The translations under genes were made by a program, and so were the position numbers. A stretch of DNA of 32,821 nt from Calditrichota bacterium (GTDB taxonomy: Bacteria; Zhuqueibacterota; Zhuqueibacteria; JANLFK01; Oleimicrobiaceae), in the NCBI GenBank assembly GCA_014359355.1, contig JACIZP010000137.1, positions 1-32,821 on the forward strand, given 5' to 3'. Each line of letters opens with the position of its first letter. Position 1 is the first letter of the stretch. The notes beneath the pieces were generated by a model. It saw only the letters and a list, made by a program, of their open reading frames with translations, was not told the origin of the DNA and searched no databases. Of the stretch, positions 8,577-13,106 are shown one piece after another.

Positions 8577-11306
8577 TCAGCCAAGGCTACTCAGGCACTC
8601 CTGCAACTTGCTCAGACGCGCCTCAAAGTCGCTCTTTTTCTGCCGTTCGCGCTCCACCACTTCTTGGCCCGCACGCGCCAAGAAATCACGATTGCTCAAC
8701 CTGGCGTTGAGGGTCTGCAGTTGTCCCTCCACGCGTTCGATCTCCTTGCTCAACCTCGCTCTCTCCAGCTCGAGGTCGATGACGCCTTCCAAAGGCACAA
8801 AAAGGGACATATTTGCCACCACGGCCCCTGCCGCAGCGCGCGGCCTGACGGTGTCAAAGGACAGCTCCTCTACCCGCGCCAGACGCTCAAGATAGTGCAA
8901 GCTGTGCTGCAACAGGGCCCGCTGATGTGGATTGGCGCCGTGCACGATAAGCTTGAGCTGCGCCTGGGGAGGCACGCGCATCTCTCCACGAATGTTGCGC
9001 ACGGCACTGATCACTTCCTGCACTAAGGCGACCTCCTCTTCCGCCTTGCCGTCAGATGGCGTCTCCTCAGGCCGAGGGTACGCTTGTACCATGATGCTCG
9101 GCACCCCTTGCGCGCGTCGGCATTTTGCCGGCAGGGCCTGCCAAATCTCCTCGGTGATGAACGGCATAAAAGGATGCGCCAGGCGCAGAATGCGTTCCAG
9201 GACGGCCAGAGCCACCGAAAGGGTTACCTGTCGCCGCTTCGGCTCGGCGGAGGGGTCCAGGTGCTCTTTGGCGAACTCCACGTACCAGTCGCAATATTCG
9301 CCCCAGACAAACTTGTGCAACACTCGCGTGGCATCATTGAAGCGAAACTCATCCAGTGCGCTGCGCACGGCCTCCACTGTGGCGCGTAGCCGGCTGAGGA
9401 TCCAGCGGTCCACCTGGAGCAGGTCCTCCGGCCCGAGCTCTTCAAGCAGCAGGGGCTGGTCCTCCGGGCGTACGTTCATCAGCACAAAGCGCGCAGCGTT
9501 CCACAGTTTGTTGGCGAACTTTTGCCCAAACTCCACCAGCGTATGGTCAAAACGGATGCTTCCGCCGACTGGGGTCAGGTAGACCATGGAAATGCGCAGC
9601 GCGTCAGCACCGTAGGCAGGAACTCCTTTCGCATAGGAGGGATTCTTCCTGGCAAACTCCGCGATCTCCGGGCCACTGGCGCCATCGATGAGCCAGAGCG
9701 GATCCGGGGAATTGCCCAGGGACTTGGACATTTTTCTGCCTTGGGGGTCGCGCACCACGCTGTGAAAGTAGACATCGCGGAAGGGGATGTCCCCCATGAA
9801 CTCAAGGGACGCCATGATCATCCTGGCGACCCAGAAGAAGATGATGTCGGGCGCGGTGACCAGCGTGTCGCCGGGGAAAAAGACCTGAAGATCGCGGGTG
9901 CGCTCGGGCCAGCCCAAGGTGCTGAATGGCCAGAGCCAAGAGGAAAACCACGTGTCCAGCACGTCCTCGTCCTGGCGCAGGCTGTGGCTGCCGCATTCTG
10001 GGCAGCTGCTCGGTTCGGAGCGGCTCACCACTACGTGCTGGTGCTCGCAGTACCACACCGGAATGCGATGCCCCCACCAAATTTGCCTGCTGATGCACCA
10101 GTCCCGCACATTTTCCATCCAGTGGAAGTAGGTCTCTGCGTGTTGCGCCGGGTGAAAGCGGATCTTCCCTTCGCGCACCACGCGGATTGCCGGTTCCGCC
10201 AAAGGCTTCATGCGCACGAACCACTGCGTGGACAAGGCCGGCTCCACCACGGTGTCGCACCGGTAGCAATGAGGAATCGGCGTTATTTGCTCCTCGACTC
10301 CCCGCAAAAGTCCCTGCTTTTCGAGATCGTTGAGCACGCGCGCACGGGCCTCCGTCCGGTCGAGCCCCTTGTAGGGCCCAGCCTCTTCGGTCATCTTGCC
10401 GTCTTCATCGATCACCACCACTTGCGGAAGGTGGTGGCGCAGTCCCACCTGGAAATCATCAAAATCGTGTGCCGGGGTGATTTTCACGGCGCCGCTCCCC
10501 TTTTCAGGATCGGCATGTTCGTCGGCGATGATGGGGATGCGGCGTCCCAACAGAGGCAGAATCGCGTAGCGCCCGACAAGGTGGCGGTAGCGTTCATCGG
10601 CTGGGTGTACGGCCACGGCTGTATCGCCCAGCATCGTCTCCGGGCGCGTAGTAGCCACGACGATTTCGCCATCGCCGTCGGCAAGGGGATAAGCGATGGA
10701 CCAGAGCTTGCCGGGCACCTCTTTGCCCGGTGACTCTTCGTCGGACAGGGCCGTCTTGCAGCGCGGGCACCAGTTGATCAAGGCGCGGTCGCGATAGACC
10801 AACCCTTTCTCGTAAAGCCGGACAAAGACCTCGCGCACCGCGGCGCTCAGCCCTTCATCCATGGTGAAGCGCTCACGCTCCCAGTCGCATGAAGCGCCAA
10901 GCCTCCGCAACTGTTCCAGGATAATGCCCCCGTACCTCTCCTTCCACTCCCAGACGCGGGCGAGAAACCGTTCGCGGCCCAAATCGTAGCGCGTCAGCCC
11001 TTCCTTGGCGAGCATTTCTTCAACCTTGTTCTGGGTGGCAATGCCCGCATGGTCAGTGCCCGGTAGCCACAGGCACTCGAATCCCTCCATCCTTTTCCAG
11101 CGGATGAGGATATCCTGGATGGTATTGTTGATGACGTGCCCCAGGGTGAGCATGCCGGTCACGTTCGGGGGCGGGATCATGATCACATAGGGCTTCTTGC
11201 TCGAATTCGCGTCGGCGTGGAACAGACGGTGCTGCTCCCAGAATCGGTACCACTTGGCCTCTACCTTCTTCGGGTCGTAAACCTTGTCCATAGCCTGTTG
11301 CGTCAT
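8577..11306 (-). CDS. valS: Valyl-tRNA synthetase
   Basis: Class Ia synthetase of 909 residues that charges tRNA-Val and edits mischarged threonine. The N-terminal signature is PPPNVTGMLTLGHVINNT (46-63), so the HIGH motif reads TLGH with Thr in place of the first His. The KMSKS loop is intact (GRKMSKSLGNS, near residue 530). The editing domain has ATTRPETMLGDTAVAVHP. A zinc-ribbon-like CPRC occurs near residue 180 and CPEC with CEH near 440. The C-terminal ~65 residues form the ValRS-specific coiled coil (LELERARLSKEIERVEGQLQ). The ATG at 11306 has CCGGAG five bases upstream. It is 36 bases after the cyclic-nucleotide-binding gene. Confidence 0.97.
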   Translation of the reverse strand: MTQQAMDKVYDPKKVEAKWYRFWEQHRLFHADANSSKKPYVIMIPPPNVTGMLTLGHVINNTIQDILIRWKRMEGFECLWLPGTDHAGIATQNKVEEMLAKEGLTRYDLGRERFLARVWEWKERYGGIILEQLRRLGASCDWERERFTMDEGLSAAVREVFVRLYEKGLVYRDRALINWCPRCKTALSDEESPGKEVPGKLWSIAYPLADGDGEIVVATTRPETMLGDTAVAVHPADERYRHLVGRYAILPLLGRRIPIIADEHADPEKGSGAVKITPAHDFDDFQVGLRHHLPQVVVIDEDGKMTEEAGPYKGLDRTEARARVLNDLEKQGLLRGVEEQITPIPHCYRCDTVVEPALSTQWFVRMKPLAEPAIRVVREGKIRFHPAQHAETYFHWMENVRDWCISRQIWWGHRIPVWYCEHQHVVVSRSEPSSCPECGSHSLRQDEDVLDTWFSSWLWPFSTLGWPERTRDLQVFFPGDTLVTAPDIIFFWVARMIMASLEFMGDIPFRDVYFHSVVRDPQGRKMSKSLGNSPDPLWLIDGASGPEIAEFARKNPSYAKGVPAYGADALRISMVYLTPVGGSIRFDHTLVEFGQKFANKLWNAARFVLMNVRPEDQPLLLEELGPEDLLQVDRWILSRLRATVEAVRSALDEFRFNDATRVLHKFVWGEYCDWYVEFAKEHLDPSAEPKRRQVTLSVALAVLERILRLAHPFMPFITEEIWQALPAKCRRAQGVPSIMVQAYPRPEETPSDGKAEEEVALVQEVISAVRNIRGEMRVPPQAQLKLIVHGANPHQRALLQHSLHYLERLARVEELSFDTVRPRAAAGAVVANMSLFVPLEGVIDLELERARLSKEIERVEGQLQTLNARLSNRDFLARAGQEVVERERQKKSDFEARLSKLQECLSSLG

Positions 11307-11342: not shown

Positions 11343-11876
11343 TCACTCCCGCAGCGCAAGGCTGAAGGCAGTGGTGAGCTTGAGAATATCCTTGTTCGCC
11401 TTGTCCAAGCGCGTGGCCAAAGTCGAAGCAATGTTGCGCATCAAGAGGAAACCGAGGGAGGGGTCCTCATGGCACAGGGTCATACAAGGCTTGCGGCGCA
11501 GCAAACCCAGCGTAGATTCCGTCAGCGTGCGCACCGTAGCGGTGCGGTGGTGGCTATCGTCCAGGAGCGCCATCTCGCCGAAAAAAGGCGACTGCGCCGC
11601 GGACAGCCGGTCCAGGGCCTTGTCGCGGGTGTCCACATTCCCGCGCGCCACCATGAGGGTCAGGCTCTTAGAAACTTCGACCTCGCCAGCTAAGAGAAGA
11701 TAGAGAGCATCGCCGCTCTCTCCTTCCTGAACGATCACCTCGCCAGCCGGATACTCCCTGACCTCGACGATCTCCCACAGGCGCGCCAACTGCGCCGAGC
11801 TCATTCCCTCGAATATGGGAAAGGCGGCGAGCCTTTCCGGCCCAATCGCTGCGGCCTTGCGTTTACTTCTGGACAC
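11343..11876 (-). CDS. Stand-alone cyclic-nucleotide-binding domain protein
   Basis: A 177-residue protein made almost wholly of a CAP_ED / cNMP-binding fold. FPIFEGMSSAQLARLWEIVE (19-38) and YPAGEVIVQEGESGDALYLLLAGEVEV (42-68) are the early strands. The phosphate-binding cassette is FFGEMALLDDSHHRTATV (98-115), with Glu101 and the Arg111-Thr112-Ala113 triplet placed as in nucleotide-binding members. A C-terminal helix ends KDILKLTTAFSLAL. No helix-turn-helix follows, so it is not a Crp/Fnr regulator. The GTG start at 11876 lies one base after the stop of the K+ channel gene, with GAGGAGGGG as ribosome site inside the channel's last codons, which implies translational coupling. It may be a soluble sensor subunit for the channel; that partnership is inferred. 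Confidence 0.85.
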   Translation of the reverse strand: MSRSKRKAAAIGPERLAAFPIFEGMSSAQLARLWEIVEVREYPAGEVIVQEGESGDALYLLLAGEVEVSKSLTLMVARGNVDTRDKALDRLSAAQSPFFGEMALLDDSHHRTATVRTLTESTLGLLRRKPCMTLCHEDPSLGFLLMRNIASTLATRLDKANKDILKLTTAFSLALRE

Positions 11877-11877
11877 C

Positions 11878-13017
11878 TCACCCCTCCTCTACCGGTGCGA
11901 TGGTCACCGCCACATCGCGCTCCTGAATAATGTAGGAATCCGGGGGATTGAGATTGACCTCCACCCTGGGGCGTCTCCCCAACCCTTTGCACGATTCTTC
12001 CAGCTTGCGCCGGATGAAATCGTCGATGGCTGAGTAGTCGCCGGCCAGCACTTGCTCCAAGTTCAGCCCCTGCTCTTCGCTGATAAAGCCCAGCAGCAGG
12101 GCACCCTTGCTTTCGCGCAAGTGGCGAGCAAACTCGCCGGAGGTTTTGCCGACAAAGCCACCGGGCACTGACTGGCGGACCAGTCGCATGCCCCTGCTTT
12201 CCCCGAGCAGCGCATCGAGCATCTCAGGAACGCCGGGCATGGCCACATGCGCTGCCAAGAAGAAACTGCTGTGCGCGTCGCCGATCACAATGCGATCGGC
12301 ATTGGCGCGGCGCAGGTGTGGCTCATTCTGCGCGTCCAGAATGTAGGCGAGAACCTTCACCTCCGGCGCTATCGCCTTGATGGTCAGCGTAGCAAGCACC
12401 GTCCGCTCGTCCGGGGAGCCTGGTGCGCGGCCCAGGGTATCCGGAACCAGCACGGCAGCGAAAGCGGCCTCCACGTTCGCGCGGCGCAGAATGGTCTCGT
12501 CGGCAAAGTCACCGCGCACGTACTTGATATCAATGTCCCGATGACGGAAAAGGAGGTTCTCTACCGCATCCTCCTGCAGGTCGTTGATGAGCACGACGGT
12601 GCGGCCATGGGCGATGAGGTCGTCGCGCAGGTGCCGGAGCAGCTCCTCCACGTGTCTTGACCAGCCGCAGATGAGCAGGTGGTTACGCGCCCGTATCCTT
12701 TGCAATCCTCTTGCCTCCCTCAACCTTCGTGTGACAAGTGTGGACGAAATGGCCGCCGTCAACAGGCTGATCACCGCCACCCCTGAGAACATCACCAGGA
12801 CGCCCACCAGCCTGCCCGCAGGCGTGATGGGAACGCGGTCACCATAGCCCACGGTCATCATGGTGACCACCGTCCACCACATCGCATCCTGCAGGGTGCT
12901 CAAGCCGCTGTTGCGCCCTTGCTCGGCCCACAGGGCCAGTGAGCCGCCCACTAGCGCGATGGCAACCACCAACACCACCACTCGGATGGTCACCCTTCGG
13001 CGCAGGCTATAGAGCAC
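11878..13017 (-). CDS. Two-TM potassium channel with RCK/TrkA-N domain
   Basis: Inner-membrane ion channel of 379 residues from the GTG at 13017. TM1 spans ~10-31, the pore helix ~41-54, the selectivity filter T55-V-G-Y-G-D60 is a perfect K+ filter, and TM2 is ~65-90. A Rossmann-type RCK_N domain follows (LLICGWSRHVEELLRHL, VLINDL, YVRGDFADETILRRANVEAA, VLATLTIKAIAPEVKVLAYI). A C-terminal RCK_C-like region ends near VTIAP. RCK domains gate channels by nucleotides or Ca2+. The GTG has no ribosome site near it. Instead TAGGAGGT sits just before an in-frame AUC at 13044, which would add nine residues (see findings). Its promoter is at 13078-13106, and the cyclic-nucleotide-binding gene follows after one base. 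Confidence 0.9.
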   Translation of the reverse strand: MLYSLRRRVTIRVVVLVVAIALVGGSLALWAEQGRNSGLSTLQDAMWWTVVTMMTVGYGDRVPITPAGRLVGVLVMFSGVAVISLLTAAISSTLVTRRLREARGLQRIRARNHLLICGWSRHVEELLRHLRDDLIAHGRTVVLINDLQEDAVENLLFRHRDIDIKYVRGDFADETILRRANVEAAFAAVLVPDTLGRAPGSPDERTVLATLTIKAIAPEVKVLAYILDAQNEPHLRRANADRIVIGDAHSSFFLAAHVAMPGVPEMLDALLGESRGMRLVRQSVPGGFVGKTSGEFARHLRESKGALLLGFISEEQGLNLEQVLAGDYSAIDDFIRRKLEESCKGLGRRPRVEVNLNPPDSYIIQERDVAVTIAPVEEG

Positions 13018-13077
13018 GTAGGAGAAGCGACGCTTGCCGACGATCTCTGACCTCCTACCCTTTGCAAGCCACGGTCA

Positions 13078-13106
13078 AATATAGCAAAACCGCGGCAACA
13101 ATTCAA
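13078..13106 (-). promoter_or_regulatory. Sigma-70-type promoter for the K+ channel operon
   Basis: On the minus strand, TTGAAT (13106-13101) and TATATT (13083-13078) are separated by exactly 17 bases. A TGC precedes the -10, giving an extended -10. Each hexamer differs from the E. coli consensus at two positions or fewer. Transcription would start near 13071 and leave a short leader with TAGGAGGT before the channel coding region. It is the clearest promoter in the window and marks a new transcript within the long minus-strand gene run. Confidence 0.65.

Follow-up and report, generated by a model that had tools for sequence, protein, structure and literature searches.

The window, by which we mean the whole stretch of 32,821 nucleotides, carries on its minus strand a K+ channel gene that is followed, after a single base (TGA G GTG), by a small gene for a cyclic-nucleotide-binding domain (CNBD). 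The neighbours of the pair in the window are an M23 peptidase, valS and a glycosyltransferase. The features and the basis of each call were as follows.

15574-13370, minus strand: M23 peptidase (Pfam, ORF)
13078-13106, minus strand: promoter-like TTGAAT-17-TATATT ahead of the channel-CNBD pair (consensus match only)
13042-13056, minus strand: AGGAGG, 6 nt, then an ATC codon, a possible channel start (sequence)
13017-11878, minus strand: channel gene, 379 aa as called, 388 aa if started at the ATC 13044-13042 (ORF, Pfam, PDB sequence match)
12838-12855, minus strand: K+ selectivity filter TVGYGD, residues 55-60 (sequence)
12714-12718, minus strand: internal Shine-Dalgarno GGAGG, 8 nt before the internal TTG (duplex energy)
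12703-12705, minus strand: candidate internal start TTG (Leu105) for a soluble RCK subunit of 275 aa (codon conservation, MthK alignment)
11881-12687, minus strand: RCK domain, residues 111-379 (Pfam, VIA-align to MthK)
11962-12072, minus strand: insert in the RCK C-lobe, about residues 316-352 (length comparison, low pLDDT)
11876-11343, minus strand: small CNBD gene, 177 aa (ORF, Pfam, AlphaFold2 model)
11532-11582, minus strand: phosphate-binding cassette FGEMALLDDSHHRTATV (FGEMALL...RTATV; sequence)
11346-11396, minus strand: family-specific C-terminal tail NKDILKLTTAFSLALRE (family profile comparison)
8577-11306, minus strand: valS, the neighbour downstream of the small gene (Pfam)

The channel probably starts elsewhere than at the GTG at 13017: a sister genome has a CTG at this position, and in both genomes an AGGAGG is well placed, 6 nt before an ATC codon. 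An AUC start codon at 13044-13042 is possible. The promoter-like element was present in all three genus members seen, with one change in the first hexamer.

The channel and its small partner

The channel was matched in Pfam by Ion_trans_2 (55 bits), Slo-like RCK (46) and TrkA_N (45), the two RCK models being above their cut-offs, and no cNMP_binding match was obtained for it. In the structure model, residues 9-32 and 66-103 form two transmembrane (TM) helices around the TxGYGD filter and the RCK domain follows behind the pore, which is the arrangement of an MthK-type channel. MthK was the best PDB sequence match (E 2.6e-19) and the top Foldseek match of the model (E 2.9e-21). With VIA-align it was tied among the best, with Z 18.6 and an rmsd of 8.8 over 288 residues of the whole chain; the confidence of the channel model was moderate only (pLDDT 72.9). 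In the sequence alignment, E210 and E212, which belong to the Ca2+ site of MthK, are replaced by Tyr225 and Leu227, so this Ca2+ site is not kept. Judged by these matches, the window channel belongs with the two-TM RCK channels, although E210/E212 are not kept.

The small protein had cNMP_binding as its sole Pfam match (58.3 bits, cut-off 27.5). No DNA-binding domain, such as the C-terminal helix-turn-helix of Crp/Fnr proteins, was found by Pfam or in the model, and no NCBIfam model fitted either the channel or the small protein at its cut-off. The ORF list and the Pfam matches thus agree with the preliminary description, which had placed the two ORFs one base apart and had read them as a two-TM TVGYGD pore with an RCK but no cNMP domain, followed by a bare cNMP domain with an intact cassette (11582-11532) and no DNA-binding part. 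The AlphaFold2 model of the small protein was good (pLDDT 82.8) and ends in a long helix, residues 139-176, that bears the conserved tail. The CNBD of MloK1 was its top match in VIA-align (Z 17.7, rmsd 2.3 over 129 residues), and the other close folds were CRP-type proteins.

Across four groups of genomes, 128 of 133 members retain the Glu of the cassette and 129 retain the Arg, which is mostly followed by Ser (98) or Thr (26). The window protein likely binds cyclic nucleotide. In four spirochaete members (L164, L166, L172 and L182), FGE...RSA is replaced by FGK...FHGSS, so that both cassette residues are lost and the linkage to the channel is kept. Three class III cyclase matches were found in the window genome, and cyclase content was discarded as support since it does not discriminate: 59 of the 63 class genomes have such cyclases.

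We consider it reasonably probable that the small protein is a docked, ligand-sensing subunit of the channel. A CNBD fold may accommodate a different ligand or no ligand at all, and the small protein might instead bind the channel without mainly sensing cyclic nucleotide, as a structural or assembly subunit or as the sensor of another ligand. The four spirochaete members, which stay linked with Lys for Glu and His for Arg, speak for this alternative; the retention of Glu and Arg in four groups, and of both in the window protein, speaks against it, and we regard it as unlikely.

Adjacency of the two genes across genomes

The first linked cases were obtained in a single-sequence search of 60 relatives and named species genomes; they lay in same-class genomes, in MAGs titled Caldisericaceae and Bacteroidetes and in two Treponema MAGs. 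Profile A1 was built from 13 small proteins and profile A2 from 11 channels. A1 was searched at E<=1e-30 in 82 genomes of the own phylum, 296 of the group of G065 (a Treponema MAG), 296 of the G064 group and 40 of the G063 group, and 138 places were matched in these 714 genomes of four phylum-level groups. Matches that reached profile position 173 or beyond were counted as tail-bearing, which applied to 131 of the 138 places (11, 83, 13 and 24 by group). A channel was found directly upstream on the same strand in 125 of the 131 (9, 81, 12 and 23 in the same order), a count in which linked hits could be favoured since A1 was built from linked members. Among linked loci the order was always channel then CNBD. 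The 125 consist of 122 cases found by script, two from the tandem locus L035 and one, L129, added by inspection (overlapping frames), and in some of them a contig end or a frame break interrupts the channel.

Homologues of the small protein that mostly lie far from channels would have spoken against the split channel of the preliminary description, and this is not the picture seen with 125 of 131 tail-bearing members directly behind one. The split two-gene design is real, goes beyond chance and is stable in evolution, but adjacency is not absolute, with two truly unlinked cases and one possible. The two truly apart among the 131 are in G061, where the small gene stands before valS without a channel, and in G374, whose two tandem channels are on a different contig from the small gene. 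Four tail-bearing genes (L045, L100, L126 and L183) are at a contig end or no more than 261 nt away from one. The small gene of G061 (L196) is well conserved including the tail. The same holds for that of G034 (L195), which also stands before valS, has no channel up to the contig end and may be unlinked.

Only tail-bearing members were channel-linked. None of 16 tail-less CNBD loci (7 profile places and 9 more generic CNBD loci) was found by a channel. When the 63 genomes of the class were searched to E<=1e-10, the family scored 220-256 bits and the next match 110, and no further hit reached position 173. In the reciprocal search with A2 (E<=1e-60), the channel was found in 82 of 296 Treponema-phylum genomes, and the small-protein profile was matched in 83 of the 296. 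Inspection of the channel places without a small-protein match revealed, besides the unlinked case of G374, a linked small gene below the threshold in G331 (97 bits), small genes running off the contig in G110 and G301, a channel running off in G138, a second, cut channel in G098 and a second, orphan channel without the insert in G216. One further genome, in which the small gene is partly masked, was left uncounted. G300 and G306 each have two channels ahead of a single small gene.

The gaps between the two genes were within -35 to +40 nt in 110 of 121 cases, 22 of them exactly -4, a distribution as in translationally coupled genes. The flanks varied more. When flanks of about 1.5-3 kb were searched, valS was found beside the small gene in 11 of 11 loci of the own phylum, in 6 of 13 of the G064 group, in none of 24 of the G063 group and in none of 85 spirochaete loci. 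The pair is conserved and its neighbourhood is not.

The small protein might be no more than co-expressed with the channel, as a soluble cyclic-nucleotide effector or buffer that shares the promoter and acts elsewhere. The small gene without an adjoining channel in G061, the similar situation up to the contig end in G034 and the separate contigs of G374 are in line with this. The adjacency of 125 of 131 genes despite differing flanks argues against it, as does the finding that the tail and the RCK insert accompany linkage, and we hold such a bystander role to be quite improbable.

The neighbourhood also bears on the reading of the pair as a Pycsar-like defence module, whose CNBD receptor would trigger a membrane effector upon phage infection. 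The CNBD of the small protein was matched to PycTIR by PADLOC with 52 bits, and 8jsk_A was aligned by VIA-align with Z 16.6 and an rmsd of 3.4 over 145 residues. PADLOC gave no match for the channel, and no cyclase, cytidylate/uridylate or other, lies beside the pair, whose neighbours are the M23 peptidase, valS and the glycosyltransferase. The site before valS is stable in the own phylum and in part of a second one, unlike that of defence islands. PycTIR receptors share a similar CNBD, but the window pair has no TIR domain, no neighbouring cyclase and housekeeping surroundings. We therefore consider a defence role very improbable.

No natural fusion of channel and CNBD was found among the 131 tail-bearing members. 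Two frames that had seemed to be fusions, one of 587 aa in G148 (L129) and one of 321 aa in G356 (L083), were resolved on the DNA into two overlapping frames each and counted as linked. Since the pair is kept together in several distant groups and the genes were not seen fused, these results suggest a channel with a separate, detachable messenger sensor. In L034:3621-10252, from the MAG titled Bacteroidetes, the order peptidase-channel-CNBD-valS is the same as in the window; this four-gene order may be old.

Insert and candidate internal start of the linked channels

The RCK C-lobe insert is located between the second and the last strand of the lobe. At least 60 residues follow the beta2 Gly in 118 of the 119 full-length linked channels, and the single exception, L106, looks truncated. 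Unlinked relatives gave 29 rows, of which 19 had 33-50 residues after this Gly, one was a fragment and 9 had 55-124, where one gene is counted twice and some of the nine long ones look misanchored. The nine include the second channel of G374, a genome with its small gene elsewhere. In the tandem arrays L131 (G306) and L200 (G300), the insert is missing from the paralogue that does not adjoin the small gene, and in the tandem array L186 (G374) it is missing from one of the two channels. The insert was low in pLDDT in the single-chain channel model, which would fit a segment that needs a partner to fold. We propose it as a candidate docking site for the small CNBD protein. Since the linked channels form one family, the association with linkage is a correlation and not a proof of contact, and the insert may be a mere mark of the lineage. 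Matching the tail type of the small protein to the motif type of the insert was dropped as evidence, as the two were only partly concordant: a KLTTA-type tail occurs without the SAIDxF-type motif in 10 spirochaete pairs and in 6 of the G063 group.

The tree distances of the channel and the small protein were correlated with r 0.92 over 119 pairs, a value that could be obtained from shared descent alone, and 73 of 116 bipartitions were shared. Mean-field DCA was run on the 119 pairs in concatenated form (Neff 89); gap artefacts dominated the output, and no credible contacts between the two proteins emerged. In the trimmed alignment, pairs across the two proteins occurred less often than expected. 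The highest scores had a mean of 2.18, barely more than the 1.69-2.17 for swaps between near relatives, and no conclusion is drawn from them.

Leu105 sits at the junction of TM2 and the RCK domain. Of 42 non-spirochaete channels, 38 encode it by TTG and the other four have CTT followed by ATG; as closely related sequences are included in these counts and are not independent, no probability is given for the internal-start signature. TTG makes up 18% of the Leu codons across the non-spirochaete channel genes and was found at six other leucine positions in only 2-9 of about 42 channels. The Shine-Dalgarno sequence before the TTG had a mean duplex energy of -8.4 in the 38 channels, compared to -5.7 for synonymous shuffles. 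In the window gene the value was -11.4, which is reached at 0.5% of the positions in the gene. The four CTT-ATG channels have no Shine-Dalgarno sequence at that site. Among the spirochaete channels, a start codon was found at the Leu105 position in 32 of 77, at the next codon in 6 and at neither in 39.

The candidate start lies two codons after the position of M107 of MthK in the sequence alignment. For MthK, a soluble RCK, M107-A336, is reported to have been purified from cells expressing the wild-type channel (PMC2573919). By this codon signature, the candidate internal start in the channel gene probably yields soluble RCK subunits. Unlinked RCK channels of the class often have an ATG at the same position, so the internal start is a trait of the wider kind of channel and not of the pair.

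Proposed assembly and comparison with known systems

For a docked, ligand-sensing CNBD subunit, we propose that the operon encodes a cyclic-nucleotide-regulated K+ channel made from separate parts. As in the rest of the family, four channel subunits would form the pore, and soluble RCKs from the internal start would complete an MthK-like octameric gating ring. The co-translated CNBD protein would bind cyclic nucleotide through its intact cassette and dock on the ring by means of its conserved tail and the long helix at its C-terminus, with the RCK C-lobe insert as the most likely contact. The bound ligand would then alter the expansion of the ring and the opening of the pore, with either sign. 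Since no fused sensor was ever observed, the extent to which the channel is occupied by it may vary too.

The window channel shares with MthK the two-TM TVGYGD pore, the RCK domain and the internal-start signature at nearly the same place. It differs by the absence of E210/E212, the RCK C-lobe insert and the CNBD gene directly downstream. With MloK1 and SthK the pair shares a K+ pore and a CNBD with the same cassette, but in those channels pore and CNBD share one polypeptide (MloK1 chain 2zd9 of 355 aa was matched at 229-341), whereas in the window it is separate and the coupling would run through the RCK ring. Two traits of bacterial CNG channels are missing from the window channel: no CNBD is fused to it (the ORFs are separate), and it has two TM segments instead of six with S1-S4. 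Judged by its domains it falls outside that family, and in its working it may be like a hybrid of MthK and a CNG channel.

A regulator on a separate polypeptide is also found in KtrAB and TrkAH; for KtrAB, the assembly of a cytosolic regulator with the membrane protein is described (PMC6957272). In these systems an RCK ring, not a CNBD, acts as the separate regulator (KtrA binds ATP/ADP), whereas the window channel has an Ion_trans_2 pore with the RCK fused to it. Crp/Fnr proteins and stand-alone CNBD proteins (3mdp, Gmet_1532) have the fold and the cassette in common with the small protein, which has no DNA-binding domain and bears the channel-associated tail.

RCK rings and CNBDs are among the main cytosolic gating modules of K+ channels and are normally alternatives on one chain. 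Their presence on separate chains would, if true, be a new bacterial route from second messengers to the membrane potential, and the pair would be a tractable system for how a ring gate reads a second ligand. Its commonness in the Treponema phylum (small protein in 83 and channel in 82 of 296 genomes) offers a handle on what cyclic nucleotides may do there. Such a channel-CNBD pair was not recognised in the titles and abstract starts of openly licensed PMC papers, which does not by itself establish its absence from print. More tentatively, and with less than even confidence, we propose a widespread, so far unnamed class of CNG channels made of three products of two genes, namely a pore-RCK, a soluble RCK and a detachable CNBD, in which cyclic nucleotide would act via the RCK ring and not via a C-linker and which Treponema-type spirochaetes would have rebuilt, with filter-less subunits, into heteromeric cation channels of altered selectivity.

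The TxGYGD filter is absent from 14 of the 119 full-length linked channels, all from spirochaetes and all with the CNBD gene kept (L070, L071, L073, L075, L079, L087, L090-L093, L131, L142 and the first channels of L035 and L036). It is mostly replaced by LAGYFDY/FAAYFDY-like sequences that are one residue shorter, and by ITGVVRF in L035 and L036. With the CNBD gene retained, such filter-less channels may conduct cations with another selectivity. L035:4227-7630 and L036:4170-7643, both from Treponema MAGs, are tandem channel-CNBD pairs in which the first channel has no K+ filter and the second has TVGYGD, an arrangement that suggests a heteromeric channel.
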